This document shows, in pieces, positions 4,484-38,431 of a stretch of DNA of 38,949 nucleotides. A program made the position numbers and the translations under genes. Under the pieces are notes generated by a model. It did not search any database. It had not been told where the DNA came from and saw only the letters and a list, made by a program, of their open reading frames with translations. Position 1 is the stretch's first letter. Each line of letters begins with the position of its first letter. The stretch is from IMG/VR virus record IMGVR_UViG_3300037427_001083, positions 1 to 38,949 of that record. The stretch is one strand, 5' to 3'. The DNA is from a virus.

Positions 4484-6067
4484 ATGGCTGCGATTATAAC
4501 TGATCAGTTGAGAATTAAGAATGCGAGAACGTTTATAGATAAGATTCGTTCCTCGACAGATTCTTACTATACCTTCATAGGTCTCCCAAATGCTGTAGAA
4601 AGCAAGTCTGACTGGGACAGTAGTCCTCCTGCTCCTAGGGACTGTTTTGATGACGAGAACTTCTATTGGGACACTATGATCGCAATGAAGAAGATCTCTG
4701 CTGATGACATTAGACCTGTTGTTAGGAAGTTGTCTTGGGCATCAGCAACAATTTATGACATGTATAGACATGACATAAACAGAAATAATCTATCAGATTC
4801 TTCAAATAAGACTAGTTTATATTCTTCTAACTTTTATGTTGTAAATAGTGAGTTTAGAGTTTATATTTGCTTACATAACGGTATTGACCCAGAGAACCCA
4901 AATGGCAAACCTTCGCTTGATGAACCTAAATTTACAGATTTGGAACCAAGAGTGGCTGGGACCAGTGGTGATGGTTATGTGTGGAAGTATCTTTATACTA
5001 TCAGTCCTTCAGACATCATCAAGTTTGATAGTCTTAATTTTGTTCCTCTACCTGTAGATTGGGAGACAAATAGTGATTATACACCTATTAGGAATAACGC
5101 TAAAACAAGTGGTCAAATAAAGGTTGCTACTATCGCTAATAGAGGATACCTTGTTGGTCCTGCTAACACGACATATACAAGGGTTCCAATTAAAGGTGAT
5201 GGAACTGGTGCAGAATGTACTATTGTTATTAATAACGACTCTAAAGTAGAATCAATTACTATCTCAAATGGTGGTAGTGGTTATACTTATGGATCAGTTG
5301 ATTTAGTTGCAGGTAATGTTCCTGTTGGTAACACTACACCAATTTTTAACATTATTGTTCCTCCATCAGGAGGTCATGGATTTGACATTTATAGAGAATT
5401 AGGTGCATCTAATGTTCTAATATTCTCAAGAATTGAGAACGATGATTCAAACCCCGATTTTGTTACAGGAACAAAGGTTGCTAGGATTGGAATTGTTGAA
5501 AATCCAAAAGCATTTGAATCTACTTCTACTATTACAGATGATAGAGCTAGTGCTATTAATGGAGTAATTTTAAAAGGATTATCTCCAAATGATGATGATT
5601 ATAAGACTACTTCATTTGAATCAAATTCATATGTTACTCAACAGGTAGGAACAGGTCAAACTGCTGTTGGAAGAGTCGTATCTTACGATAAAACTACTGG
5701 TGTTCTTAGGTATTGGCAGGATAGATCTTTAGTCGGATTTAATACTGATGGTACTCAAAAGACATCTCCTACATATGGGTATGGATTAAATAGTTTTACT
5801 GGAACTACCGCTTCTGGTGGTACTTTGAAAATTGTAGGTGGTACGAAAGACTTATATATAGACAACGGATTCGGATCAATCAGTAATCCTGGTATAAGTA
5901 CCGTCATAAATAATAAAACATATTATCTGGGTCAGACATTTATTAAAGGTGTGGCGAATCCAGAAATTGAAAAGTACAGTGGTACTATACTTTACGTTGA
6001 TAATAGACCTTCTATTACTAGGTCTGCTAACCAGCGAGAAGACATTAAAGTCATTTTGCAATTCTAA
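4484..6067 (+). CDS. gp8: Baseplate wedge subunit gp8
   Basis: A 527-residue homologue of T4 gp8 (334 residues), a structural subunit of the six baseplate wedges. Recognisable features are the start with a Lys/Arg-rich first helix, the segment GDGYVWKYLYTISP (T4 has GDGYVWEYLFEIPP), and the C-terminus YVDNRPSITRS...EDIKVILQF, which matches the T4 ending YMENRPPI...EEINILFTF. The extra length lies mostly in the second half. It includes a GGSGYTYG module near residue 265 of a type also found in other virion proteins here. It follows the large structural gene after 34 bases and precedes the giant tail gene by 18 bases. A late-promoter motif overlaps the upstream stop. Confidence 0.88.
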   Translation: MAAIITDQLRIKNARTFIDKIRSSTDSYYTFIGLPNAVESKSDWDSSPPAPRDCFDDENFYWDTMIAMKKISADDIRPVVRKLSWASATIYDMYRHDINRNNLSDSSNKTSLYSSNFYVVNSEFRVYICLHNGIDPENPNGKPSLDEPKFTDLEPRVAGTSGDGYVWKYLYTISPSDIIKFDSLNFVPLPVDWETNSDYTPIRNNAKTSGQIKVATIANRGYLVGPANTTYTRVPIKGDGTGAECTIVINNDSKVESITISNGGSGYTYGSVDLVAGNVPVGNTTPIFNIIVPPSGGHGFDIYRELGASNVLIFSRIENDDSNPDFVTGTKVARIGIVENPKAFESTSTITDDRASAINGVILKGLSPNDDDYKTTSFESNSYVTQQVGTGQTAVGRVVSYDKTTGVLRYWQDRSLVGFNTDGTQKTSPTYGYGLNSFTGTTASGGTLKIVGGTKDLYIDNGFGSISNPGISTVINNKTYYLGQTFIKGVANPEIEKYSGTILYVDNRPSITRSANQREDIKVILQF

Positions 6068-6085
6068 GGGAATCATTTAAAAGAT

Positions 6086-9000
6086 ATGGCACAAGAAACT
6101 AATCTCAACGTATCGCCTTATTTTGACGATTTTGATGCGAATAAGGATTTCCATAAGGTATTATTCAAGCCAGGATTGCCAATTCAGGCTAGAGAATTAA
6201 CAACATTACAATCGATCCTCCAAAATCAGGTAGAGCAAGTAGGAACTCATCTGTTTAAGGAAGGATCTTGTGTTATTCCTGGGCAAATAAATTTTAATAA
6301 TAACTTATTTGCTGTTGAAGTTGAAGCAAGCTTTTTAGGTACAGATATAACAGGTTATACTGAAGATATACTAGATGAGATAGTTGTTGGATCTAATTCC
6401 AATGTAAAGGCAAAGATTGTAGATTATATGGAGGAAGAATTTTCTCCAAGGGGATATGTTACTCTATTTGTAAGTTATCTTAGTTCTGGTGTTAATGATA
6501 AAGATGTTTTTGATGATGATGAGACTTTACTACTTAAGGAAAATGTAGTATCTGAAGTTGCACAATTAACTCTACAGGCAGGTCAAGGTTGTGCTAAAAC
6601 CGCTCCGACCAAGGCTACATCAGTTGGATCTGCAGTATTTTTATCAGCAGGTGTATATTTTATAAGGGGACAGTTTATAAGAGTTAATGATGAGATGTTG
6701 GTTCTTGATCCTCATGATGAGAATCCAACATATAGAGTTGGTTTAGAAATAACTGAGGAGATAGTTACATCTAGTAAAGACTCGTCTTTGACTGATAATG
6801 CTAAAGGATTTAATAACTTTGCTGCTCCTGGTGCAGATAGATTAAAAATTAGTGTAAAGTTAGGTAAGAGGTCTATAGAATCTGAAAAGAATGAGAACTT
6901 TGTTGAGTTGATGGTTATCAATGGAGGTTCAATATCTCATATTGATGATAAGATTAAGTATAATGAACTTGGAAATGAGTTAGCAAGAAGAACATATAGT
7001 CATGCTGGTGATTTCTATGTAAAACCATTCACAATCTCTGCAAAAGAATCATTAAATGATAATAAGGGAAATAATGGTGTATTTGGTATAAATCAATTAA
7101 CTTATGGTAATAACACACCAAGTTCGGATTTAGGTACATATAAAATATCTCCAGGTAAAGCATTTATTAAGGGATTTGAAGTTCCTGTAAGAAATGTTGT
7201 ATATTTGGACTTTGAGAAGACAAGAGTAAAGAAGGTATTAAAAAATCAAGCAGTAAATTACTATACAGGACCAACTTTAACTCTTAATAGAGCATATGGT
7301 TGTCCTAGAATAGGATTTACAACAACTTCTAGTATTAGTCTTAGAGATGAGAGAATTGGTGCTGTTGCTCATGTTGCAGCAGGTAAAGAGATTGGTGTTG
7401 CAAGAGTATATGATTATGCATTAGAGTCTGGATCATATTCAGCAGCACTTCCTGCAACTAATGAATTTGATGCCACACTTTACGATATTCAACCATATAC
7501 AGAATTAACGGTAAACCAAGCAATAACTTTAACTGTACCTACTTACATTAAAGGTAAATCTAGTGGTGCAACAGCACACTTGAGATTTGGAACTACTACT
7601 GGAATTATAACTGCATATAACTCAATTGGAGCATTTACACCAGGTGAAAAACTAATCTTTAATGGAGTAGACAATAATAGAATTGCAACAGCAATAACTG
7701 CACATTCTATAGCTTCTGTTGAATCTATTCATAGTTCAGTTGGTGTTGGTACATTTAATGCTGATGTTAAACAATTTACAAAGATTTCTTATGGTAATGT
7801 AAATATTACTCCTAAATCTGGAACAGCACCTGGAATATCAACAGTTACAGTTACTGGTGGTGGATTTAGAAATAAGGTAAAAGCAGGTGATTTAGTATCG
7901 TTCACTAATCCTTTATTGGGTGGAACGACTGTTAAGACATATGCTGTAGTTGATAGTTATACTGATGATAGTAATATTATTATTGCGGGTATAACTACAG
8001 TTGCAGGTGTTTGTGATGGCGGTCTTCCTGCTGCAGCAGCTCAACCAGTTGACTTCCAGTTAATAGGATCTAAATTTCAGTCATCTACAGATAATAGTCT
8101 TTATACACCACTACCTAAATCATGGGTTGCTAATGTTGATTTAACAGAGTCTAATATCACAATTAGGAAGGAATATGATGTAACTATTACTGCTAATGCT
8201 ACTAATACAATACAAGCAGGGCAGAATGAGAGTTTCTTAGCATATGATGAAGAAAGATATGTTTTAACTAATGATGCAGGTGTTACTGAAGAATTAACTC
8301 CAGATAAACTACGTTTTACTAATGGTGGTAGAGAATTAAGAATATTTGGATTATCTGCTACTGCTGGATCTGCAAGATTAGTTGCTACTCTTAATAAGAT
8401 TAATATTAAGAATAAAGTTAAGAATAGAATAAGAACAAACTCAATTATTGTTAATAAGTCCAAATTAGTAACTTCTGGTGTTGGTACAACATCATTAAAT
8501 GATGGATTGTCATATGGTAATTATGGTTATGGACTAAGAGTTCAGGATAAAGATGTTTGTCTTGGGGAACCAGATGTAACTAAAGTTTATGGTGTATTTG
8601 AATCTGGTGGTATTGAAGATCCATTGATTCCATCTGTTACTGTATTCAACATGAATGGTCCAACTGGACGTGTTGATGATTTAATTGCTGGTGAAGAATT
8701 TGTTGGTAAAACAACAGGTGCAATAGGTCTTTATATTGAAAGAATTAACAGTGCTAAGGCAGCATTTGTATACTTAAGTGATTTAAGATTTGAGTTAAAT
8801 GAGCAAATTGAATTTGTTGAGAGTGGTATAACTGCTACTATTAATGATTTTGATCCTGGTGATAATAACATTATGGATAGGTTCTCTTTAGATAGTGGAC
8901 AAAGAGAAACCATTTGTGACTATTCACGTCTTATTAGAAAACCTAATTCTAAAGATCCTAGAAAGAAGATAAGAGTTATTTTTGAATCTGCAGAATATGC

Positions 9001-24831: not shown

Positions 24832-26484
24832 ATGGCAAAGTTATTCGGCTTTTCTATTGAGGATAACGAAAAGAAATCCCCTGGCGTAGTATCACCCATC
24901 CCTAAATCAAACGAGGATGGGGTTGATCACTATCTGACCAGTGGATTTTTTGGTTCTTATGTAGATATAGAAGGGGTCTATAAAACCGAATATGATCTCA
25001 TTAAGAGATATAGAGAGATGGCACTCCATCCTGAATGTGATGGTGCGATTGAAGATATCGTTAATGAAGCAATCGTAAGTGATTTAAATGACAGTCCCGT
25101 TCAGATAGATTTAGATAATTTAAATGCTGGTGATTCTTTAAAGAAAAAAATTAGAGAAGAATTTAAAACTGTTCTTGAACTTCTAGATTTTGATAAGAAG
25201 TGTCATGAGATTTATAGAAATTGGTATGTAGATGGAAGATTATATTACCATAAAGTAATTGACTTAAAGAATCCTCAAGATGGTATTCAAGAGTTAAGGT
25301 ATATTGATGCATTGAAGATGCGTTATGTTCGAGAATCAATAACCAAAAAAGATAAAGGTGGTGGTGTTCAGGTACAAGATGGACGGGACAATCCAATGTC
25401 ATCTCCGTTCCCAAATATTAAAGAGTATTTTGTATATAATCCAAAACAGAATGTAGCACCTTATGGTGGTCAACCAGGTAAAGGATCTGGTGGTGGAGTT
25501 AAGTTTGCAAAAGATTCAATATCATATTGTACCTCTGGATTAGTTGATAGGAATAAGGGAACAACATTATCTTATCTACACAAAGCAATTAAGTCACTCA
25601 ACCAGTTGAGAATGATTGAGGACTCTCTTGTTATCTACAGATTATCAAGAGCACCAGAAAGAAGAATCTTCTACATTGATGTTGGTAACCTTCCTAAAAT
25701 GAAGGCAGAACAATATCTACGTGACGTTATGATGCGTTATCGTAATAAGTTGGTATACGATGCTAGTACTGGTGAGATTCGTGATGACAAGAAGTTTATG
25801 TCCATGTTGGAAGACTTCTGGTTACCACGTAGAGAAGGTGGTAGAGGAACTGAGATTACTACATTACCAGGTGGACAGAACTTAGGTGAACTAGCAGATA
25901 TTAAGTACTTCCAGTCTAAGTTGTATAGATCTCTAAATGTACCTGAATCTAGACAAGGTGGTGAAGGTGGATTTAACTTAGGAAGATCCTCAGAGATCCT
26001 TAGAGATGAACTTAAGTTTACTAAGTTCGTAGGTAGACTACGTAAGAGATTCTCAAGGATGTTCAGCGATATGTTGAAGACCCAATGTTTACTTAAAAAC
26101 CTTGTATCTCCTGAAGATTGGGCACAGATGGAGGAGCATATTCAATATGACTTCTTATATGATAACCACTTCTCTGAACTGAAGGAAGCAGAATTAATGA
26201 CAGAGAGATTAAATATTGCTGCTACTGCAGAACCTTATGTTGGTAAGTATTATTCACAAGATTACGTAAGACGTAAGTTCCTCCGTCAAACAGATGAAGA
26301 AATTATTGAACAGGATAAATTAATTGCAAAAGAGATAGAGCAAGGAATTATCCCTGATCCAATGGCTCCTATTGATCCTGAGACAGGATTACCACTGGAA
26401 CCTATGGGAGGTCAGTCACCAGATAATACTAATGGAGCATCTGGTAAAACACCTCTAGACCCTGAAGCACCTACCCTTACATAA
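24832..26484 (+). CDS. gp20: Portal vertex protein gp20
   Basis: A 550-residue homologue of T4 gp20 (524 residues), the dodecameric portal through which DNA is packaged and ejected. Many blocks match T4 closely: YRNWYVDGRLYYHKVID, GIQELRYIDALKMRYVRE, the run from SGLVDRNKG to VIYRLSRAPERRIFYID, VYDASTGEIRDD, and ELKEAELMTERLNIAATAEP. The C-terminus is acidic and Pro-rich and probably flexible. It ends 1 base before the next small gene. In T4 the gp67 gene follows; here a 4.7 kb island intervenes. Confidence 0.96.
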   Translation: MAKLFGFSIEDNEKKSPGVVSPIPKSNEDGVDHYLTSGFFGSYVDIEGVYKTEYDLIKRYREMALHPECDGAIEDIVNEAIVSDLNDSPVQIDLDNLNAGDSLKKKIREEFKTVLELLDFDKKCHEIYRNWYVDGRLYYHKVIDLKNPQDGIQELRYIDALKMRYVRESITKKDKGGGVQVQDGRDNPMSSPFPNIKEYFVYNPKQNVAPYGGQPGKGSGGGVKFAKDSISYCTSGLVDRNKGTTLSYLHKAIKSLNQLRMIEDSLVIYRLSRAPERRIFYIDVGNLPKMKAEQYLRDVMMRYRNKLVYDASTGEIRDDKKFMSMLEDFWLPRREGGRGTEITTLPGGQNLGELADIKYFQSKLYRSLNVPESRQGGEGGFNLGRSSEILRDELKFTKFVGRLRKRFSRMFSDMLKTQCLLKNLVSPEDWAQMEEHIQYDFLYDNHFSELKEAELMTERLNIAATAEPYVGKYYSQDYVRRKFLRQTDEEIIEQDKLIAKEIEQGIIPDPMAPIDPETGLPLEPMGGQSPDNTNGASGKTPLDPEAPTLT

Positions 26485-26485
26485 T

Positions 26486-26842
26486 ATGATGATAGAAGAT
26501 AGTACAGATTGGTTGAATCGAGTAATTAACGAGTTAGCAAATCCACTAGATTCAATGCCAATAGCAAATGGCGATAATAAGTATGCGCCACCAAAACGTA
26601 GAGCAGAACTAGATGAAGAAATGAATGCAATTGAAGAAAACCCAAGACCAGAAGAAGAAGTAGCAGCCTGGTTTATTGATGAAGAAGATGGACAGGAGTA
26701 TGAAGGTCCAGTAGAAGAGACCATTCATGAGAAGATGTATAAGATAGCAACGAATAAATATAATCCATTCTCTATTGGTGGATCAGAGAATATTCATGAT
26801 TTTGATAAACGTGTAGGAGGTTCTGAAAATAGATTATCATAG
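26486..26842 (+). CDS. Hypothetical acidic protein after gp20
   Basis: A 118-residue acidic protein that starts one base after the gp20 stop, so it is probably coupled to it. Residues 20-60 hold DNKYAPPKRRAELDEEMNAIEE and a Pro/Glu-rich linker. Residues 55-75 (VAAWFIDEEDGQEYEGPVEE) and the tail KMYKIATNKYNPFSIGG look partly structured. No domain was recognised. Its position next to the portal suggests a prohead-assembly or portal-associated role, which is inference only. The last codons contain an AGGAGG that may serve as the ribosome binding site for the next gene. Confidence 0.7.
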   Translation: MMIEDSTDWLNRVINELANPLDSMPIANGDNKYAPPKRRAELDEEMNAIEENPRPEEEVAAWFIDEEDGQEYEGPVEETIHEKMYKIATNKYNPFSIGGSENIHDFDKRVGGSENRLS

Positions 26843-26903
26843 GTTTTTAAATATACCTGATTATCTTCCAAACATAGACGTATCAAAATATAAAACTAAA
26901 GGT

Positions 26904-27437
26904 ATGGGATGGTTGCAGTTTCATAAGCAACTACAATTTGAAGATTTAGGTAATGATAAAATTCTCCCGTGGTTAAACAGCATGGGATATAGTTCTCATT
27001 GGATAGAGTTCTTTTATACTCCTCCACATGAGGACGGTATTGTGCATTCTGATAATATTGGTGATTGGCCTTGGGCAAAAATAGTATATCAAATAGGTGC
27101 TAAAGGAAGTACTATGAGATGGTGGTCTTCCGATAAAGCATTTGAAGTTAGCACTACAGATGCAAGAGCAGGTGGTGATAGAACAAATGATCACTATCAT
27201 GGTAAAGTATTAGTTGCTAGACCAGAAGAGTCTACTATTGAGCATGAAGTAGAAGTTGGTACATCTAGTCTTATTAATGTTGGACCTCTACACAGTTCTC
27301 ACAATCCAACAGACGATAAACGGTTTACTATTACTATTGCTTTAATTGATATGAATGTAGATTATGAACATAGAATCCTCTGGGAAGAGGCAAAAGAATC
27401 TTTTAAACCTTACATAGTTCCTTTATCTGATTCTTAA
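26904..27437 (+). CDS. 2OG-Fe(II) oxygenase-like protein (start uncertain, may begin at 26829)
   Basis: From the first ATG the protein has 177 residues. It shows the order of a double-stranded beta-helix 2-oxoglutarate oxygenase: HSD at residues 48-50, a distal His at 130 (GPLHSSHN) and Arg140 about ten residues later (DKRFTITIAL). The family assignment rests on these residues only. The frame stays open and protein-like upstream of the ATG (FLNIPDYLPNIDVSKYKTKG) back to a stop at 26814, with no ATG, GTG or TTG. A perfect AGGAGG at 26815-26820 is followed, 8 bases on, by ATA at 26829, giving 202 residues if used. The 3' end overlaps the convergent radical SAM gene by 35 bases. Confidence 0.65.
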   Translation: MGWLQFHKQLQFEDLGNDKILPWLNSMGYSSHWIEFFYTPPHEDGIVHSDNIGDWPWAKIVYQIGAKGSTMRWWSSDKAFEVSTTDARAGGDRTNDHYHGKVLVARPEESTIEHEVEVGTSSLINVGPLHSSHNPTDDKRFTITIALIDMNVDYEHRILWEEAKESFKPYIVPLSDS

Positions 27438-29244
27438 GTAGACCTTTGCGTCTTAAGATGAAGACTTCGTGAGGGTTATTTTTATCAAAGTTTTTAAATT
27501 CAGTATCAATAAGATAATCAACATCTCCTTCTTCCCATGTCTCTAAGTTATAATGAGATCGGAATGCATGAGGATATGTTATATTCTCATCAAATATGAA
27601 TGATCTTTGTGCTGAGAAGATATTATAATCTATTGGATATCGAATATTAGTCCATTCTTCAATCATTGGAGATTGATCTATAATCATGTCTTCTATTTTG
27701 GAGAAGATATAATTTTTATTATTAAACATAAAGGCAAAACTACCTGCATGTAAAGTGTGACCATGTTTACCTGTGTCTAATATTTTTCCAGTCTTCATAT
27801 AGTGATTAACTGATTTGAATATCTCCCTATAGTGATCCCCCAGTATACCCTTATCATTTCTAACATAATCAAATAAGGTATCATAGAATCTTCTATATGA
27901 TAATCCTAATTTGTAATGGAAGTATTTTGCAATTAGTTGACTATATCCTGCTATATGGAACTGAACAATTAACCAACCATACATATACGCTTCTATTAAC
28001 TCATCATTAGTCATTGTATTGGTCTCAGAGATGAGTTCTATTATCTCCACTACACCATTATAATCTTTATCATTACCGAAGGATACGTAGTCTTCTGACT
28101 TGATTGTTTTTATTCCATGCAATTCTCTTGATAGTTTGCTATTGAGTTGGGTATTGCCAAACATTTGGCAGAACCATACATCTATAGATTCATGTTGACC
28201 ACATTCAAGAACTTTTGAGAATCCTTCCTTCCAAGAATCTAAAGTCTCTTCAGGTAGACCTAGAATAAATTCAGTATATGTTTTGACTCCATATTCTCTA
28301 CTCTTTTCTATTTGTTCAGAGATTTTATTAACCTTCATATTTTGTCTTTTGATTGCCTTAAGTGTAGGTTCATTCATACTCTGAACACTTATAGTTACTC
28401 CTCTACTAATATCACCAACTATTTTTGCAATCTCAAAAACAACTTCTGTAGAGTTCTTGGAGTATTGTATGTTTATTGCTTCTAGATTACCTTTATCTGC
28501 TGCTTCTCTAAACATCTTTGCAATCTCAACATCTCTATCTCTAAAGATACCGAAGTTGGCATCAGCATTAAATATGAATCCAACATTATGATTACCTGCC
28601 CATTCAATGTCCTGTTTGACCCTATCAAGGTCAAACTTTTTAATTTTCTGATATGTCATTCCACCCCAATCACAGTAAGTACACATATGTGGACAACCAC
28701 GATTAGTCTCCATAGTCATAGCCCACATGACATCAGGATTATTCTGAATGATATCATCAAAAAGACCAATCTGATAAGGACTAGGGAAGTCCAATACCTC
28801 AATTCGTTCTTTAGTATAGAGTCGTTCAATGCTTTCATTATTCTTAATTTTTCTTAGAAGATCACAGAATGATTCCTCACCTTCAGAGATGATGATGGTG
28901 TCTATAAAGTCATACTCAAGTAAATGTTTTGTTCCTTGAGGACCACCAAATTCTATAATACAATCTGGATACTTCTCTTTGATTAATTTTGCTACATGTA
29001 AATTATAGCGTTCATTCCAGATATAACAACTAAAAGCACATACTGTTGGATTATCTAAACGATCTAATATATCCTGTGGATCTTCTCTTCTGAATATAAA
29101 TTCTTTTAATTTAAAGTTATCTGTAATATCTTTAAACTGACTACAATAGCTCCATAAACATCCTACACTATAAGGTAACCAGTAGGTGTCTTCTTTTCTT
29201 ATTTCCACAGCATACTGTGGTTGGAACATGTAGATGTTTTTCAT
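27403..29244 (-). CDS. B12-binding-type radical SAM enzyme, copy 1 (downstream)
   Basis: A 613-residue enzyme. The N-terminal 130 residues form a Rossmann-like cobalamin-binding-type domain (LPYSVGCLWSY; CAFSCYIWN; IIEFGGPQ; EGEESF), though no DxHxxG cobalamin-ligand motif is visible. The radical SAM core has the 4Fe-4S motif CPHMCTYC at residues 184-191, followed by DWGG, then NADANFGIFRDRD, SVQSM and EFILGLPEETLDSWK. The C-terminal 200 residues are unassigned. It is a paralogue of the gene upstream and overlaps it by 4 bases (ATGA), so the two are translationally coupled. The substrate is unknown. Related B12-type enzymes methylate or rearrange unactivated carbons in small molecules, lipids, sugars or peptides. 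Confidence 0.88.
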   Translation of the reverse strand: MKNIYMFQPQYAVEIRKEDTYWLPYSVGCLWSYCSQFKDITDNFKLKEFIFRREDPQDILDRLDNPTVCAFSCYIWNERYNLHVAKLIKEKYPDCIIEFGGPQGTKHLLEYDFIDTIIISEGEESFCDLLRKIKNNESIERLYTKERIEVLDFPSPYQIGLFDDIIQNNPDVMWAMTMETNRGCPHMCTYCDWGGMTYQKIKKFDLDRVKQDIEWAGNHNVGFIFNADANFGIFRDRDVEIAKMFREAADKGNLEAINIQYSKNSTEVVFEIAKIVGDISRGVTISVQSMNEPTLKAIKRQNMKVNKISEQIEKSREYGVKTYTEFILGLPEETLDSWKEGFSKVLECGQHESIDVWFCQMFGNTQLNSKLSRELHGIKTIKSEDYVSFGNDKDYNGVVEIIELISETNTMTNDELIEAYMYGWLIVQFHIAGYSQLIAKYFHYKLGLSYRRFYDTLFDYVRNDKGILGDHYREIFKSVNHYMKTGKILDTGKHGHTLHAGSFAFMFNNKNYIFSKIEDMIIDQSPMIEEWTNIRYPIDYNIFSAQRSFIFDENITYPHAFRSHYNLETWEEGDVDYLIDTEFKNFDKNNPHEVFILRRKGLLKNQIKELCKV

Positions 29245-31004
29245 GCCTTAACTAGAGATTTTTTTTCTACTAATTCATATCTGTTCTTAAGTAGGTTTGA
29301 TCTTCTTAGATAAAAGATGTCCCACTTATCAGATTCATATCTAGGATTCCATATTTTATGACCTTGAACTTCAATTGGGTAATCAATCTCAGGATTGTAT
29401 AATAAGTTTCTTTGGACATCCATTACTTCTTTAGAAGGATTGCATGCTTTTTCTACAAAATCAAATGCAAGATTTTTATTATCCCAAAATACTAAGAAGT
29501 CTGCACCCCCATTCATTCCAAATGTATGTCCAGTTTCCTTTCCTTTAATTTTACCCGTTGTCAAGTAAGTTGTGATCTTTTGTTTAAGACCACGATAATG
29601 ATCGCCAAGTATACTACTATCACTATCTAGGCAATCCATTATGTTATCATAGAATTCCCTAAAGTTGTAGAATTGAGATACGTATTGAGTAAATCCATTA
29701 ACATGGAACATGATAATAATCCAAGAGAATAGATAACCTTCAATTATATCTTCAGTTGTCATCGTATTAGTTTTATTGACTAATTGAGATATCTCTTTAA
29801 TTGGATATTCATCAGGGTCATGCTTACTAAAAGAGATATAGTCTTCACAAGGTATAGTTTCCATACCATACAAATCTTTTTTTAGATTCATTTCAGTTGA
29901 ACCAAAAAGTTGACACAACCATACATCTAGACCATCAAAACCTGTTTCTAAAACCATTGCCATTCCATCCTTCCATGAGTCAAGAGTCTCTTCTGGAAGA
30001 CCAAGTATTAATTCAGTATGTACATCTAGATTTCTTGCTCTTGCTCCTGCTATCATTTCATCTACTCTATTAACCTTCATATTCTGTCTTTTAATCGCTT
30101 TTAGTACAGGTTGACTCATACTCTGTACACTCATGTTCACACCTCTTTTTTCATATGGACCGAATATCTCAGTCACATCATAAACAGCATCAGTTTGATT
30201 CTTAGTATACTGTACTGATAAATCATCAATAATTGAATCTGGGTGATCTGCTGCTTCTCTTAACCACTTTGCAATTTGTATATCTCTATCTTTAAATATT
30301 CCAAAGTTGGCATCACCCATCATTGCAAATCCAATCTTCTTACCTTGCATCCAATCAATATCTTTTTTCACAATATCCATATTAATCTTTTGGAGTTGAT
30401 TAAACCAATTACCCCATTCACAAAATGTGCAGCGATGTGGACATCCTCTAGTAGATTCAAGTAATATTGACCATTGTACTTCTGGATTATCCTCTATAAT
30501 TTTATCCATGACACCACTTAAGTAAGGACTCTCATACGGTCCTTCTTGATTTTTATCTAGTTCAAGGTGCTTTCTTTCATATACGGGTTTTATTTCGTTT
30601 CCATTTTTTATATCAATAAGTAATTCTTCAAATGCTAATTCACCATAACCACAAATAGCAGAATCTATAAAATCATATTTTTCTGACCAAGAAGCATCTA
30701 CTTGAGGACCACCAAATTCAATAACACAATTTGGGTACTTATCTTTAATTGCTTCTGCCATCATTAAGTTGTACTTTTGGTTCCAAACGTAACAACTAAA
30801 AGCACATACTGCTGGATTATCCATTCTCTCTAGAACTTTATCTGGATATTCTCTTTTAAAAAATACTTCACCCAGTTCAAATCCATCCACATTTTTGTTT
30901 GCATAACTCCAAACGCATGCAACAGAATATGGTAACCAATATTGTTTAACACCTCTAATAATTATTGTACTTTGAGGTTGGAATAGATAAACCTTATTTC
31001 GCAT
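29241..31004 (-). CDS. B12-binding-type radical SAM enzyme, copy 2 (upstream)
   Basis: A 587-residue paralogue of the downstream enzyme with the same architecture. The N-terminal Rossmann-like domain has LPYSVACVWSY, CAFSCYVWN and VIEFGGPQ. The radical SAM motif is CPHRCTFC (Cys188, Cys192, Cys195) followed by EWG. Then come MGDANFGIFKDRD, SVQSM, LKAIKRQNMKVN and LILGLPEETLDSWK, which are near-identical in both copies. The start overlaps the stop of a 51-residue ORF as TAATG. It is on the minus strand within a plus-strand late structural module, so it is probably transcribed at another time. Substrate unknown. Confidence 0.88.
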   Translation of the reverse strand: MRNKVYLFQPQSTIIIRGVKQYWLPYSVACVWSYANKNVDGFELGEVFFKREYPDKVLERMDNPAVCAFSCYVWNQKYNLMMAEAIKDKYPNCVIEFGGPQVDASWSEKYDFIDSAICGYGELAFEELLIDIKNGNEIKPVYERKHLELDKNQEGPYESPYLSGVMDKIIEDNPEVQWSILLESTRGCPHRCTFCEWGNWFNQLQKINMDIVKKDIDWMQGKKIGFAMMGDANFGIFKDRDIQIAKWLREAADHPDSIIDDLSVQYTKNQTDAVYDVTEIFGPYEKRGVNMSVQSMSQPVLKAIKRQNMKVNRVDEMIAGARARNLDVHTELILGLPEETLDSWKDGMAMVLETGFDGLDVWLCQLFGSTEMNLKKDLYGMETIPCEDYISFSKHDPDEYPIKEISQLVNKTNTMTTEDIIEGYLFSWIIIMFHVNGFTQYVSQFYNFREFYDNIMDCLDSDSSILGDHYRGLKQKITTYLTTGKIKGKETGHTFGMNGGADFLVFWDNKNLAFDFVEKACNPSKEVMDVQRNLLYNPEIDYPIEVQGHKIWNPRYESDKWDIFYLRRSNLLKNRYELVEKKSLVKA

Positions 31005-31159
31005 TAATCCTCTTCTTGTTCGTCAATAGGAAAATTGACATGGTGGGCGATTGCATCATCATTGTCAGAACGTGTCGTAAATGGTCCAGGATATTGACTA
31101 TCATCCCATTTAGGATCACTACTCCATAATTGTTCCTTGAGGTAGTTGAGAATTCCCAT
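31004..31159 (-). CDS. Small acidic protein, first gene of the radical SAM operon
   Basis: A 51-residue ORF. It begins MGILNYLKEQLW, has a middle WDDSQYPGPFTTRSDNDDA and ends acidic (EQEED). Support for it being real: a GAGAAG purine-rich stretch just before the ATG, a TATAAT -10 box upstream, and a stop codon that overlaps the next start (TAATG), implying coupling. No Cys, no membrane segment. It may be an accessory or regulatory peptide, or a substrate of the two radical SAM enzymes; the sequence does not decide. Confidence 0.65.
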   Translation of the reverse strand: MGILNYLKEQLWSSDPKWDDSQYPGPFTTRSDNDDAIAHHVNFPIDEQEED

Positions 31160-31168
31160 TTTCTTCTC

Positions 31169-31197
31169 ATTATATCACATATTCGTATTTAGTCTAA
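31169..31197 (-). promoter_or_regulatory. Sigma70-like promoter of the radical SAM operon
   Basis: On the minus strand, TTAGAC (31197-31192), a 17-base spacer and a perfect TATAAT (31174-31169) lie just upstream of the 51-residue ORF. This resembles a host housekeeping promoter, as used for phage early genes. The -35 box overlaps the plus-strand late motif at 31193-31200. Confidence 0.6.
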
Positions 31198-31200
31198 ATA
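31193..31200 (+). promoter_or_regulatory. Late promoter motif before the gp67-like gene
   Basis: TCTAAATA, a variant of the late consensus, ends 25 bases before the ATG at 31226, a spacing like that of the other late motifs in the window. It shares bases with the opposing early-type promoter. Confidence 0.4.
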
Positions 31201-31225: not shown

Positions 31226-31405
31226 ATGGACGAACTATTGGACATGGTTGTAAATGATGCGTCAGCAGCAGAAGTGAGTGACAGAATTAAGGACATCCTT
31301 TATACAAAATCTTCAGAAAAGATCGAAGGACTTAGACCTGATGTTAATACTACTTTTGTAAATAGCACCGAATTAGATGACTCTGATGACGTTGGCGAAG
31401 AGTAA
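31226..31405 (+). CDS. gp67: Prohead core protein, gp67-like
   Basis: A 59-residue protein starting MDELLDMVVNDASAAEVSD. It has an amphipathic first half, a short Lys/Glu segment (YTKSSEKIEGL) and an acidic C-terminus (DDSDDVGEE). Small size, acidity and position just before the gp21 protease match T4 gp67, a minor prohead core component (T4 order gp20-gp67-gp68-gp21). The sequence similarity I can see is weak (EL..., AxxxxxxI...K), so the assignment rests largely on synteny. A late-type motif precedes it and two late motifs follow its stop. Confidence 0.65.
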   Translation: MDELLDMVVNDASAAEVSDRIKDILYTKSSEKIEGLRPDVNTTFVNSTELDDSDDVGEE

Positions 31406-31440: not shown

Positions 31441-32091
31441 ATGAAACTCATTAGAGAAGAAATTGAATCTGTTGAAATTCTTACCGAAACAGTTGGTGGT
31501 AAGAAGAATCTTTTTATAAAAGGAGTCTTCCTTCAGAGTGAGATGGTAAACCGCAATGGTCGGTTGTATCCATTCTCAATAATGGAGAAAGAAGTCAACA
31601 GGTACAACAAGGACTATGTTCAAAAAGGACGTGCTCTTGGTGAATTAGGTCACCCAGATGGACCTACCGTAAACCTCGATAGAGTGTCGCATAAGATTAC
31701 TGATCTTAAGCAGGAAGGTAAAAACTTTGTTGGTAAAGCTCAAATCTTATCTACACCTATGGGTAAGATTGCAGAATCACTTTTGAAGGATGGAGTAACT
31801 CTAGGAGTATCTTCTAGGGGTATTGGTTCTTTAAAGGATAGTAGCAAGGGTTACAAAGAAGTTGGCGAAGACTTTATGTTGGCAACTGCTGCGGATATCG
31901 TCGCTGACCCTTCTGCACCTGATGCATTTGTTTCAGGTATTATGGAAGGAAAAGAATGGGTTTGGGATGGCGGCCTCCTCAAAGAAAGACTCGCAGATCA
32001 AACAAGAATTAAAATTGAACGTGCAACTATCTCTAGAGATTTAGAAGAACAAAAACTTGGTTTATTCCAAGACTTCCTAAGTTCACTATAG
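31441..32091 (+). CDS. gp21: Prohead maturation protease gp21
   Basis: A 216-residue homologue of T4 gp21 (212 residues), the serine protease that digests the prohead core and trims the capsid proteins before packaging. The family motifs are LGELGHP with catalytic His71 and LGVSSRGIGS with the nucleophile Ser124 or Ser125. VNRNGRLYPF near residue 37 is also typical of prohead proteases. It lies between the gp67-like gene and the scaffold gene, as in T4. A double late-promoter motif precedes it. Confidence 0.94.
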   Translation: MKLIREEIESVEILTETVGGKKNLFIKGVFLQSEMVNRNGRLYPFSIMEKEVNRYNKDYVQKGRALGELGHPDGPTVNLDRVSHKITDLKQEGKNFVGKAQILSTPMGKIAESLLKDGVTLGVSSRGIGSLKDSSKGYKEVGEDFMLATAADIVADPSAPDAFVSGIMEGKEWVWDGGLLKERLADQTRIKIERATISRDLEEQKLGLFQDFLSSL

Positions 32092-35082: not shown

Positions 35083-35085
35083 TTT

Positions 35086-35157
35086 GCCATCATAGCACAG
35101 TGGTAGTGCAGGGCTTTTGTAAAGCCAAGGTCGGTGGTTCAAATCCTCCTGATGGCA
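35086..35157 (+). tRNA. tRNA-Thr (anticodon TGT)
   Basis: A cloverleaf can be drawn by hand. The acceptor stem is GCCATCA with TGATGGC (7 pairs) plus discriminator A. The D stem is GCAC/GTGC around AGTGGTA. The anticodon arm has loop TTTGTAA, with anticodon TGT at 35118-35120. The T arm is GGTGG-TTCAAAT-CCTCC. CCA is not encoded. Oddities: a T-T mismatch at the centre of the T stem and a G-A pair at the end of the anticodon stem. It reads ACA codons, which are frequent in this AT-rich phage. Confidence 0.88.
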
Positions 35158-35228
35158 TTAGTTTACATAAAGGACATTAAGAGAATGTTAAACATGTAAA
35201 TAATTATTCGCCGACTTGAGGGAAATGC

Positions 35229-35378
35229 ATGTCAGTCATTATCTACCTAGATCACATTGAGGAACTAGAGCAAGAGAATGAAGAACTAAAGCAAGAGATT
35301 ACTTATCTTAGAGAATTACTAACATATGATTCAAAAGCTGTTGCCATCAGACGATCCACTATTACACGCAAAGATTGA
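35229..35378 (+). CDS. Small coiled-coil protein overlapping the deformylase start
   Basis: A 49-residue ORF. After MSVIIYLDHIEEL it has a clear heptad-like stretch (LEQENEELKQEITYLREL) predicting a coiled coil; the C-terminus is basic. A GAGGGA Shine-Dalgarno-like sequence precedes the ATG. It overlaps the deformylase gene by 53 bases in another frame, unusual here, where most overlaps are 4 bases. Its biased amino acid composition and ribosome binding site favour a real gene; the overlap argues for caution. Confidence 0.5.
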   Translation: MSVIIYLDHIEELEQENEELKQEITYLRELLTYDSKAVAIRRSTITRKD

Positions 35379-35763
35379 AAAGTGTAGTTACAACTTAGAT
35401 AGATCTAAGTTATCGTATCAGTTGCATGAAAATATGTTCCACTATAATGGAGTGGGACTATCAGCAAATCAAATAGGTATAAAAGAAAGAGCATTTGTAA
35501 TGATATCAAACATGGAGTTGCAAGAGACGATTACATGTTTTAACCCAAAAATAATAAAGCAATCAAAGAAGTTAGTAAAATTGGAGGAAGGATGTTTATC
35601 CTTTCCTGATGTATTTTTAGATGTTGATAGACCAGAGTCTATTGTTGTGAAGTATGAGGATGAAGGTAAAGAAGTACATAAAGTAAAATTAGAAGGATTC
35701 ATTGCTAGGATATTTCTACATGAATATGACCATATGGAGGGTATTGACTTCACTCAAAGATAA
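35326..35763 (+). CDS. def: Peptide deformylase
   Basis: A 145-residue enzyme that removes the formyl group from the N-terminal Met of new proteins. All three family motifs are present: GVGLSANQ (residues 42-49), EGCLS (88-92) with metal-ligand Cys90, and HEYDH (132-136) with both His ligands and the catalytic Glu133. It is shorter at the C-terminus than cellular enzymes (about 165-190), as is usual for phage copies. Cyanophage deformylases have been reported to prefer the N-terminus of photosystem II protein D1, so a role in keeping photosynthesis running during infection is plausible. The start MIQKLLPSDDPLL fits the family. Confidence 0.93.
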   Translation: MIQKLLPSDDPLLHAKIEKCSYNLDRSKLSYQLHENMFHYNGVGLSANQIGIKERAFVMISNMELQETITCFNPKIIKQSKKLVKLEEGCLSFPDVFLDVDRPESIVVKYEDEGKEVHKVKLEGFIARIFLHEYDHMEGIDFTQR

Positions 35764-37140: not shown

Positions 37141-37700
37141 AAACTATGGACTATAAGTGGAAGTGGATATCAATAGGAACAGCAAGTAGTATTTTCATGT
37201 TGTCTCATATTGGTATGATTGGGATGATCTCTAGACAAAGTAAGTTCCCTGTAGTAAATGTACCTGTAGGTTCTTATACTTCATATAAAGTAGAAGCAAA
37301 TAAGGACGGTTATAGAATTGATTATCGTGCTAATGATCCTAAGATGTCTCATGTGGAACGGGATATAAAGAAGAAAGCTGGGTTTCTGGGATTGGGTAAC
37401 AACACCATTACGGAAAGGAAATCATATCCAGCAACGAGTCTTGGGACTAAAAACTTGGTTAATGAATCCACAAAAGGTGGTAAGTCCGAGGAATGTATCG
37501 AAGCAATCGGTGCAGGAAAAGGAACAGGTAGAATGGTCGGTGCTAGTGTTGGTGCTGCTGTGGCCCCTAGTCTCACTGGGATTCCCTTTGTTGGTTGGGT
37601 TCTTGCTGGAGCTGCTACGATGATGGGTATGGATGCAGGATCTGATGTAGGTGGTACAATGATTGAAAGTATTAATCCAAATTGTGAGGAAGAACTATGA
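37137..37700 (+). CDS. Hypothetical membrane protein with glycine-zipper-like C-terminus
   Basis: A 187-residue protein. A membrane segment or uncleaved signal anchor lies at residues about 9-31 (WISIGTASSIFMLSHIGMIG). A soluble basic region follows. The C-terminal Gly/Ala-rich hydrophobic region (about 125-175) includes GAGKGTGRMVGASVGAAV and FVGWVLAGAATMMG, resembling glycine-zipper segments that pack or oligomerise in membranes. It overlaps the genes on both sides by ATGA, so it forms a coupled set of 42-residue peptide, this protein and PcyA. No family recognised; a lysis, envelope or thylakoid-associated role is possible. Confidence 0.72.
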   Translation: MKTMDYKWKWISIGTASSIFMLSHIGMIGMISRQSKFPVVNVPVGSYTSYKVEANKDGYRIDYRANDPKMSHVERDIKKKAGFLGLGNNTITERKSYPATSLGTKNLVNESTKGGKSEECIEAIGAGKGTGRMVGASVGAAVAPSLTGIPFVGWVLAGAATMMGMDAGSDVGGTMIESINPNCEEEL

Positions 37701-38431
37701 CAGATTTTCATCCTTTAGTGCAAAAACTTGCTACTAATATTCGTGTCTCATATAGTGCATTACCAGGAATAAAACCATATCATAAGCATCAAGATCTAGC
37801 GACTGTTACTGGTAATCTTGATGATGATAAATTGTATATTCATAATGAATTTTATAAATGTCCTGGTCTACGTAAGGTTCATTTAGAAACTGCAAGACTA
37901 GGTAATTTAGATATTCTACACTCAGTATTTTTTCCAGATCCTAAATATGACCTACCAATCTTTGGTGCTGATATCGTCGCTACTCCTGCAGGAGTTGGGG
38001 CTGCTATCGTTGATATATCACCTGTTAATGGACTGTCTAAAAGTATCACAGATAAACTAAGTAGTATTGGTAGTAAGTATCATTTTAAAGAAGTGAGAGC
38101 ATTACCTCTTTGGGGTGATGAAATATTCTCTCCTTATTGTAAATTTCTTCGCCTTCAAAATTCTAAAGAAGAATCTGATTTTGTTTCTTTAGTACAAGAT
38201 TATCTTGATGTATTCAATCATGAAGTAATGAGTGTAGAAATAGATGATCATGATTGGGTTAAAGTAATGAAGAGACTTGATGGTCAAATTTGGTACTGTC
38301 AACAGCAACAGAAAAATGATAAGACTCGTGGTATTCTTGCAAAATGTTTTGATGATAAGTGGGCAAAGAAATATTTGGAACGAGTATTATTTGATGAACC
38401 TATGACACCAAAACATCATACTTTTCCTTAA
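37697..38431 (+). CDS. pcyA: Phycocyanobilin:ferredoxin oxidoreductase PcyA
   Basis: A 244-residue ferredoxin-dependent bilin reductase that makes phycocyanobilin from biliverdin IXalpha. Close matches to cyanobacterial PcyA: HLETARLGNLDILHSVFFP, LPIFGADIVATPAGVGAAI, DISP, LPLWGDEIFSPYC, and the near-identical GQIWYCQQQQKNDKTR and WAKKYLERVLFD. The catalytic residues known for Synechocystis PcyA (Glu76, His88, Asp105) align with Glu64, His75 and Asp92, so the enzyme should be active. The sequence is PcyA, not the phage-specific PebS or PcyX. It overlaps the upstream gene by four bases. Phage PcyA is an auxiliary gene linked to bilin pigment metabolism in the host. Confidence 0.96.
   Translation: MTDFHPLVQKLATNIRVSYSALPGIKPYHKHQDLATVTGNLDDDKLYIHNEFYKCPGLRKVHLETARLGNLDILHSVFFPDPKYDLPIFGADIVATPAGVGAAIVDISPVNGLSKSITDKLSSIGSKYHFKEVRALPLWGDEIFSPYCKFLRLQNSKEESDFVSLVQDYLDVFNHEVMSVEIDDHDWVKVMKRLDGQIWYCQQQQKNDKTRGILAKCFDDKWAKKYLERVLFDEPMTPKHHTFP

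Follow-up and report, generated by a model that had tools for sequence, protein, structure and literature searches.

Paired cobalamin-type radical SAM genes in a partly exchangeable cassette within the head-gene module of uncultured cyanophages

The locus and its enzymes

We analysed a cassette of metabolic-looking genes that lies inside the capsid and portal module of an uncultured virus, represented by IMG/VR record IMGVR_UViG_3300037427_001083, of which the whole 38,949-nt stretch is referred to here as the window. Its core consists of two tandem genes for radical S-adenosylmethionine (SAM) enzymes, rSAM_A and rSAM_B, accompanied by an oxygenase-like gene and a short open reading frame (ORF). 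An initial annotation had described such an insertion, and all of its parts could be located. On the basis of gene calls from a simple ORF finder, the locus and its borders comprise the following features.

24832-26484, plus strand: gp20 portal protein, left border of the insertion (PF07230 (Portal_T4), E 2e-194; phrog_213)
26486-26842, plus strand: structural-type ORF of 118 residues in the interval between portal and oxygenase genes (phrog_4639, E 1e-5)
26829-27437, plus strand: 2-oxoglutarate (2OG)-Fe(II)/cupin-type oxygenase-like gene, 202 residues (invariant HxD/H/R residues, weak fold matches)
27403-29244, minus strand: rSAM_B, predicted TokK-type cobalamin radical SAM enzyme, 613 residues (profiles, fold, motifs)
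29241-31004, minus strand: rSAM_A, second predicted TokK-type cobalamin radical SAM enzyme, 587 residues (profiles, motifs)
31004-31159, minus strand: ORF of 51 residues, at the position of a GT25-like glycosyltransferase in most relatives
31186-31192, minus strand: leftward late-promoter-like CTAAATA of the operon of the 51-residue ORF, rSAM_A and rSAM_B (motif)
31194-31200, plus strand: rightward late-promoter-like CTAAATA of the gp67-like/gp21 transcription unit (motif)
31226-31405, plus strand: gp67-like small ORF, right border of the insertion (phrog_14164, E 8e-19), named from its position and PHROG similarity
31441-32091, plus strand: gp21 prohead protease (PF03420 (Peptidase_S77), E 3e-39; phrog_207)

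The oxygenase gene converges on the minus-strand radical SAM operon, and the two overlap tail to tail by 35 nt in the window (27403-27437) and by ~50 nt in the other clade of carriers, which leaves no space for a terminator between the converging late transcripts. The operon itself is tightly packed: the 51-residue ORF overlaps the start of rSAM_A by one base, and rSAM_A and rSAM_B share an ATGA overlap by which they appear translationally coupled.

Both radical SAM paralogues exceed the cut-off of PF04055 (E 3e-14 and 2e-11) and score below that of the B12-binding domain PF02310, in the order PF02310 then PF04055. Full-length comparison of the rSAM_B model with Foldseek gives an N-terminal Rossmann B12 domain, a radical SAM domain and a C-terminal domain. 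The motifs CxxxCxxC, DANFGI and GLPEETLDSWK are present in both enzymes and, with conservative variants allowed, in 87 of 87 homologues, and the xWN and C[DE]W motifs likewise occur in 87 of 87 sequences. The ratio of nonsynonymous to synonymous substitution rates (dN/dS) is 0.07-0.14 for rSAM_B and 0.11-0.29 for rSAM_A, which indicates that both are under purifying selection. With motifs intact, PF04055 matched and dN/dS low, the proposal of two active-looking B12-type enzymes in one operon is borne out at the sequence level, and the retention of the motifs across the homologues speaks against an inactive paralogue.

A profile of 22 phage radical SAM sequences retrieved TokK (E 5e-97), CysS (E 9e-54) and little else from the PDB. 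The AlphaFold model of rSAM_B (predicted local distance difference test (pLDDT) 85, predicted template modelling score (pTM) 0.86) matches TokK over its full length, C-terminal domain included, with a template modelling (TM) score of 0.85-0.87, and CysS with a TM score of 0.77. Residues around the cofactors agree with this placement. TokK W76 and CysS W75 sit under the cobalt, and TokK W215 lies between SAM and cobalamin (PMC9692996, PMC13331322, PMC12667779); Trp76 aligns with W76 of rSAM_B and W74 of rSAM_A, and Trp215, two residues past the last cluster cysteine, aligns with W193 and W197, respectively, all of them conserved throughout. In CysS, Trp188 contacts the substrate and Trp271 forms a gate (PMC12667779). 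The former aligns with rSAM_B W174, invariant in the alignment, and the position of the latter is taken by an invariant Gln260. The assignment of rSAM_A and rSAM_B to the TokK/CysS class (class 1) of cobalamin radical SAM enzymes is thus well supported, by hidden Markov model profiles for both and by the predicted fold for rSAM_B. By analogy with this class, C-methylation is the likely chemistry of both.

Two narrower family assignments were rejected. The best NCBIfam match of both paralogues is the KedN5 family NF033712, at 181 and 124 bits, far below its curated cut-off of 700 bits. Scores against TIGR03975 (rSAM_ocin_1), a family of radical SAM C-methyltransferases acting on ribosomally synthesized and post-translationally modified peptides (RiPPs), are 38 and 33 bits, compared with a cut-off of 281.85.

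For the oxygenase-like gene, the earlier 2OG reading stands in part. H73-x-D75, H155 and R165 are invariant in 27 sequences and reproduce the 2OG-Fe(II) signature of an HxD...H triad followed by a distal arginine ~10 residues after the histidine, and the fold matches of the model (pLDDT 76) are 2OG hydroxylases and cupins, although weak, with TM scores below 0.45. However, no Pfam, PHROG or other profile family matched the protein. Sequence searches of the PDB with the oxygenase, and with the glycosyltransferase discussed below, returned chance matches only. We thus treat it as a 2OG-Fe(II)/cupin-type candidate on the strength of its residues and the weak fold match. Its dN/dS is 0.05-0.13. 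No ATG, GTG or TTG is found near the homologous start in the window clade (26815-26843 of the window), and an ATA codon lies 8 nt after AGGAGG (or AGGGGG), an arrangement kept in about ten relatives; the other clade has an ATG one codon earlier. The oxygenase of the window clade probably begins at this rare ATA.

Late promoter, distribution and exchange

Between the 51-residue ORF and the gp67-like gene, two outward-facing CTAAATA motifs stand back to back, in a window that contains only four CTAAATA-type 7-mers in total. TAAATA is the core of the late promoter in T4-like cyanophages and Aeh1 (NATAAATA, PMC2984593; CTAAATA, PMC1524935), and the T4-like consensus (N)(A/C)TAAATA described in these studies is matched upstream of late genes, with TAAATA lying 27-59 nt upstream of gp8, gp18, gp19, gp20, gp21 and gp22 in the window. 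The divergent form TATTTA-N-TAAATA is present at 31 of 31 distinct cassette junctions, which share ancestry and hence are not independent events. At cassette-free junctions (11 cultured and 54 environmental), the rightward TAAATA is found in 65 of 65 and a leftward-type TATTTA in one of 65, where it is not divergent. On the simplest account, the ancestral promoter of gp67 lies downstream of the insertion, which carries an opposing copy. Late control of the radical SAM operon, as predicted from the promoter motif, is well supported, and the oxygenase gene is assigned to a late transcription unit by its position downstream of gp20.

All cassette-bearing records are metagenomic, most of them fragments. 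A tblastn search of 50,697 phage records returned no relative of either radical SAM enzyme above 24% identity and, with the oxygenase protein of a relative as query, no oxygenase relative; 2,504 of these records have a gp20 match, and none carries the cassette. A common occurrence among cyanophages, considered at the outset, is therefore not what we find, as no cultured phage carries the genes. In cultured cyanophages, only ~30-40 nt separate gp20 from the gp67-like ORF, and our junction survey thus upholds the earlier statement that gp20 normally stands directly before gp67.

In IMG/VR, by comparison, 68 loci hold an rSAM_B relative, nearly all at the gp20/gp67-gp21 junction. The clear exception is L047, in which an rSAM_B orthologue (4837-6651, 67% identity) has a second genomic home away from gp20: it follows replication genes that resemble RecA and helicases, and a 2OG oxygenase gene (PF13640) lies nearby. 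Across 30 loci spanning gp20-gp21, a simple ORF and motif filter counted rSAM_B in 30, at least two radical SAM genes in 23, a glycosyltransferase in 22 and the oxygenase in 23. Single-enzyme counts at L018, L019, L021 and L058 are artefacts of the filter or of a contig end (L058 ends inside rSAM_B), a second gene being present, whereas L040 and L056 truly keep rSAM_B and lack rSAM_A. The junctions of 63 further gp20 relatives comprise 46 that are insert-free, 8 with radical SAM genes, 5 with other content, 3 that are too short and 1 in which the contig ends after an oxygenase gene.

A single branch (support 84/96) of the portal tree separates 41 rows with the cassette from 11 cultured rows, so that the cassette characterizes one uncultured lineage or a few such lineages. 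The carriers are one or more uncultured clades of T4-like cyanophages, with photosynthetic bacteria of ocean and lake as hosts. The window is identified as cyanophage by a ferredoxin-dependent bilin reductase gene (37697-38431; PF05996, E 1e-59) and by a portal protein ~68-79% identical to those of the closest cultured cyanophages. The bilin reductase, together with a high-light-inducible-like protein in L270 that scores under the Pfam cut-off, settles the host type; psbA, sought as a further marker, was found in none of 16 related contigs, all of which are fragments. The 118-residue ORF is restricted to the marine clade, and its relative is a P-SSM7 protein encoded beside VrlC. Downstream of gp23, the window also carries a tRNA-Thr(TGT) and a peptide deformylase gene (35085-35763).

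Radical SAM genes have been reported in marine T4-like phages (PMC7029224, PMC5332604). The open-access literature, to which our search was confined, does not describe B12-type radical SAM genes at this junction in the parts covered. The best matches in GTDB genomes, at ~20-30% identity, are uninformative on a bacterial source. A separate phage contig (L257, 523-17231) holds a radical SAM relative of 33% identity among several further radical SAM genes and a TauD-type oxygenase gene.

The cassette is divided into a constant and an exchangeable half. In the radical SAM tree, position-B genes form one group, whereas those at position A derive from five or more deep lineages. Spearman correlations with gp20 identity over 30 loci are 0.86 for rSAM_B and 0.95 for the oxygenase, compared with 0.32 for rSAM_A and 0.02 for the glycosyltransferase. 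In the pair L029 and L032, gp20 and the oxygenase are identical and rSAM_B is 98% identical, whereas rSAM_A and the glycosyltransferase share 57% and 49%; DNA identity drops from 99-100% to ~60% at the promoter and rises again at the rSAM_A/rSAM_B junction. The pair L006 and L012 shows the same breakpoint pattern, and the window itself compares with L012 at 95% for gp20, 90% for rSAM_B and 47% for rSAM_A. From these comparisons, the constant half is rSAM_B plus the oxygenase where present (it is missing in some relatives), and the exchangeable half is rSAM_A together with the glycosyltransferase or 51-residue ORF, its limits being the promoter and the rSAM_B start. The modularity of the cassette is thus well supported by sequence. 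One further locus (L016, 3839-6215) has a third radical SAM gene, of 529 residues, upstream of an N-terminally shortened glycosyltransferase gene, possibly an exchange caught in progress.

The same pattern leads us to reject, as the default, the heterodimer that had been suggested for the two paralogues, since rSAM_A is swapped for members of deep lineages against the same, near-constant rSAM_B and neither L040 nor L056 has it. New relative to the initial annotation are the 118-residue ORF, the ATA start, the 35-nt overlap, the divergent late promoter, the modular exchange and the glycosyltransferase that stands before rSAM_A in most relatives.

Possible function of the cassette

In most relatives, a GT25-like glycosyltransferase precedes rSAM_A. 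It matches the phrog_2835 glucosyltransferase in 16 of 16 members and has an invariant EDD motif. In cultured cyanophages, some of its homologues are surrounded by fucosyltransferase, phosphoheptose isomerase and capsule genes, and others lie beside an amidinotransferase, a radical SAM gene and oxygenases. The contig of L032 carries six further copies, five of them consecutive, near sugar-nucleotide genes, with UDP-glucose dehydrogenase, DegT aminotransferase, GDP-mannose dehydratase and GT11 as neighbours. The PHROG match, homologues in glycan clusters and the extra copies together point to a glycan. On that contig (L269, 7338-12494), the five consecutive GT25-like genes are followed by an amidinotransferase-like gene, and the cluster also has UDP-glucose dehydrogenase and tryptophan halogenase genes.

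That the metabolic set forms a modification pathway, as first suggested, is probable. More specifically, we propose, with about even confidence, a cassette expressed late, with a constant and an exchangeable half, whose enzymes tailor a glycan or similar moiety by C-methylation. Going by enzyme class, each radical SAM enzyme would methylate cobalamin with one SAM and generate a 5'-deoxyadenosyl radical from another, placing methyl groups on unactivated sp3 carbons, the oxygenase would hydroxylate, and the glycosyltransferase would provide or attach the sugar. The context suggests that the product would be a glycan-like decoration made during virion assembly, with a virion protein as its most likely carrier and the host surface as the alternative. 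Exchange of the glycosyltransferase/rSAM_A half would alter this decoration between close relatives. Exchange between near-identical phages is expected for a feature recognized from outside, by receptors, competing phages or grazers; together with late timing and location, it argues for an externally recognized decoration of virion or cell surface. A system for varying surface decoration, in which a constant C-methylase and oxygenase work with an exchangeable glycosyltransferase/C-methylase half under a back-to-back late promoter shared with head genes and the exchangeable half is swapped as a whole between phages that are otherwise identical, is offered tentatively. It would be the first case known to us in which a virus encodes B12-dependent radical C-methylation of a glycan or protein of the virion.

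Several points weigh against this proposal. The cassette glycosyltransferase misses the Pfam GT25 cut-off, and the cassette of the window and its marine clade lacks this enzyme altogether, with the 51-residue ORF or nothing in its place, so that the glycan link is indirect for this genome. The 31 promoter-bearing junctions share their ancestry, as noted. The substrates of TokK and CysS are small molecules linked to pantetheine rather than sugars (PMC12667779, PDB titles), and some TokK-class relatives are not methyltransferases, such as ThnL, which makes a thioether (PMC13331322). Finally, we infer both the substrate and its location on virion or host, and the evidence fits either target.

Indeed, the same cassette might act on host surface polysaccharide, altering lipopolysaccharide (LPS) or O-antigen late in infection and so preventing superinfection or the attachment of progeny to debris, an alternative that we consider possible although doubtful. 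Phage glycosyltransferases usually modify host O-chains, the cultured homologues lie among LPS/capsule-type genes, and the host recognition cluster of pelagimyophages has radical SAM cassettes with LPS genes (PMC7029224). The late promoter and head-gene position, however, suit virion assembly better, a late surface change would be of little gain to a lytic phage, and the cassette is without a membrane or polymer export gene.

It is unlikely that the enzymes tailor a carrier-bound or free small molecule, such as a natural product or cofactor, in the manner of TokK and CysS. The full-length fold match that extends to the C-terminal domain, and the equivalence of CysS Trp188 to invariant W174 (PMC12667779), would suit such a role, but the CysS gate is replaced by invariant Gln260, carrier protein, synthetase and thioesterase genes were not found in or near the cassette, and most cassettes hold a glycosyltransferase instead.

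Less probable still is a RiPP system in which the 51-residue ORF is a precursor matured by both radical SAM enzymes and the oxygenase, as its place immediately upstream of B12-type radical SAM genes and the weak TIGR03975 scores might suggest. This ORF occurs with three distinct lineages of rSAM_A, each of which has close relatives without it, a glycosyltransferase occupies its position in most cassettes, no peptidase or exporter gene lies within the cassette, and the best family is TokK/CysS rather than a RiPP class. Pairs of oxygenase and glycosyltransferase make hypermodified phage DNA (TET/JBP clusters), but decoration of phage bases by these two with a radical SAM enzyme is the least plausible reading, as the promoter is late rather than early or middle, the oxygenase falls outside recognized DNA-oxygenase families and 13 contigs gave no TET/JBP match, in a search whose control was also silent.

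Enzymes of the TokK type have been described from antibiotic pathways, and every cassette of a large uncultured cyanophage clade has one. A constant enzyme under strong purifying selection and apparent late control combined with a second that is swapped suggests a chemical product worth conserving yet variable enough to exchange, and this product would depend on the corrinoid supply of the host, an abundant photosynthetic bacterium. L029 and L032, almost the same apart from the exchangeable half, are a natural pair in which the product and its role in selection could be tested directly.

Comparison with known systems

The closest enzymes are TokK (7kdx/7kdy), a carbapenem C6 methylase, and CysS (9n1b), an iterative O-methyl alkylator. 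With TokK, the phage proteins share domain order, full-length fold (TM 0.85-0.87), the CxxxCxxC motif, the tryptophan two residues past its last cysteine and the tryptophan under the cobalt. They differ in their low identity (~23%), the lack of a carbapenem or carrier pathway and their occurrence as tandem phage copies with an oxygenase and often a glycosyltransferase. CysS has a similar fold (TM 0.77), with equivalents of Trp75 and Trp188 in the phage enzymes, but its gate Trp271 corresponds to Gln260, identity is ~21% and the gene neighbourhood is another.

The cyanophage GT25-like family phrog_2835 includes the glycosyltransferase of most cassettes, although the window's own cassette has none. 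Its members in the cultured phages examined belong to large glycan clusters, rather than to gp20/gp21, and are not accompanied by B12-type radical SAM pairs. In the pelagimyophage host recognition cluster (PMC7029224), T4-like marine phages likewise gain or lose radical SAM genes beside glycosyltransferases. That cluster is a 44.6-kb island from VrlC to gp14, whereas the cassette described here is a 4-kb unit from gp20 to gp67, with fixed borders and a late promoter of its own.

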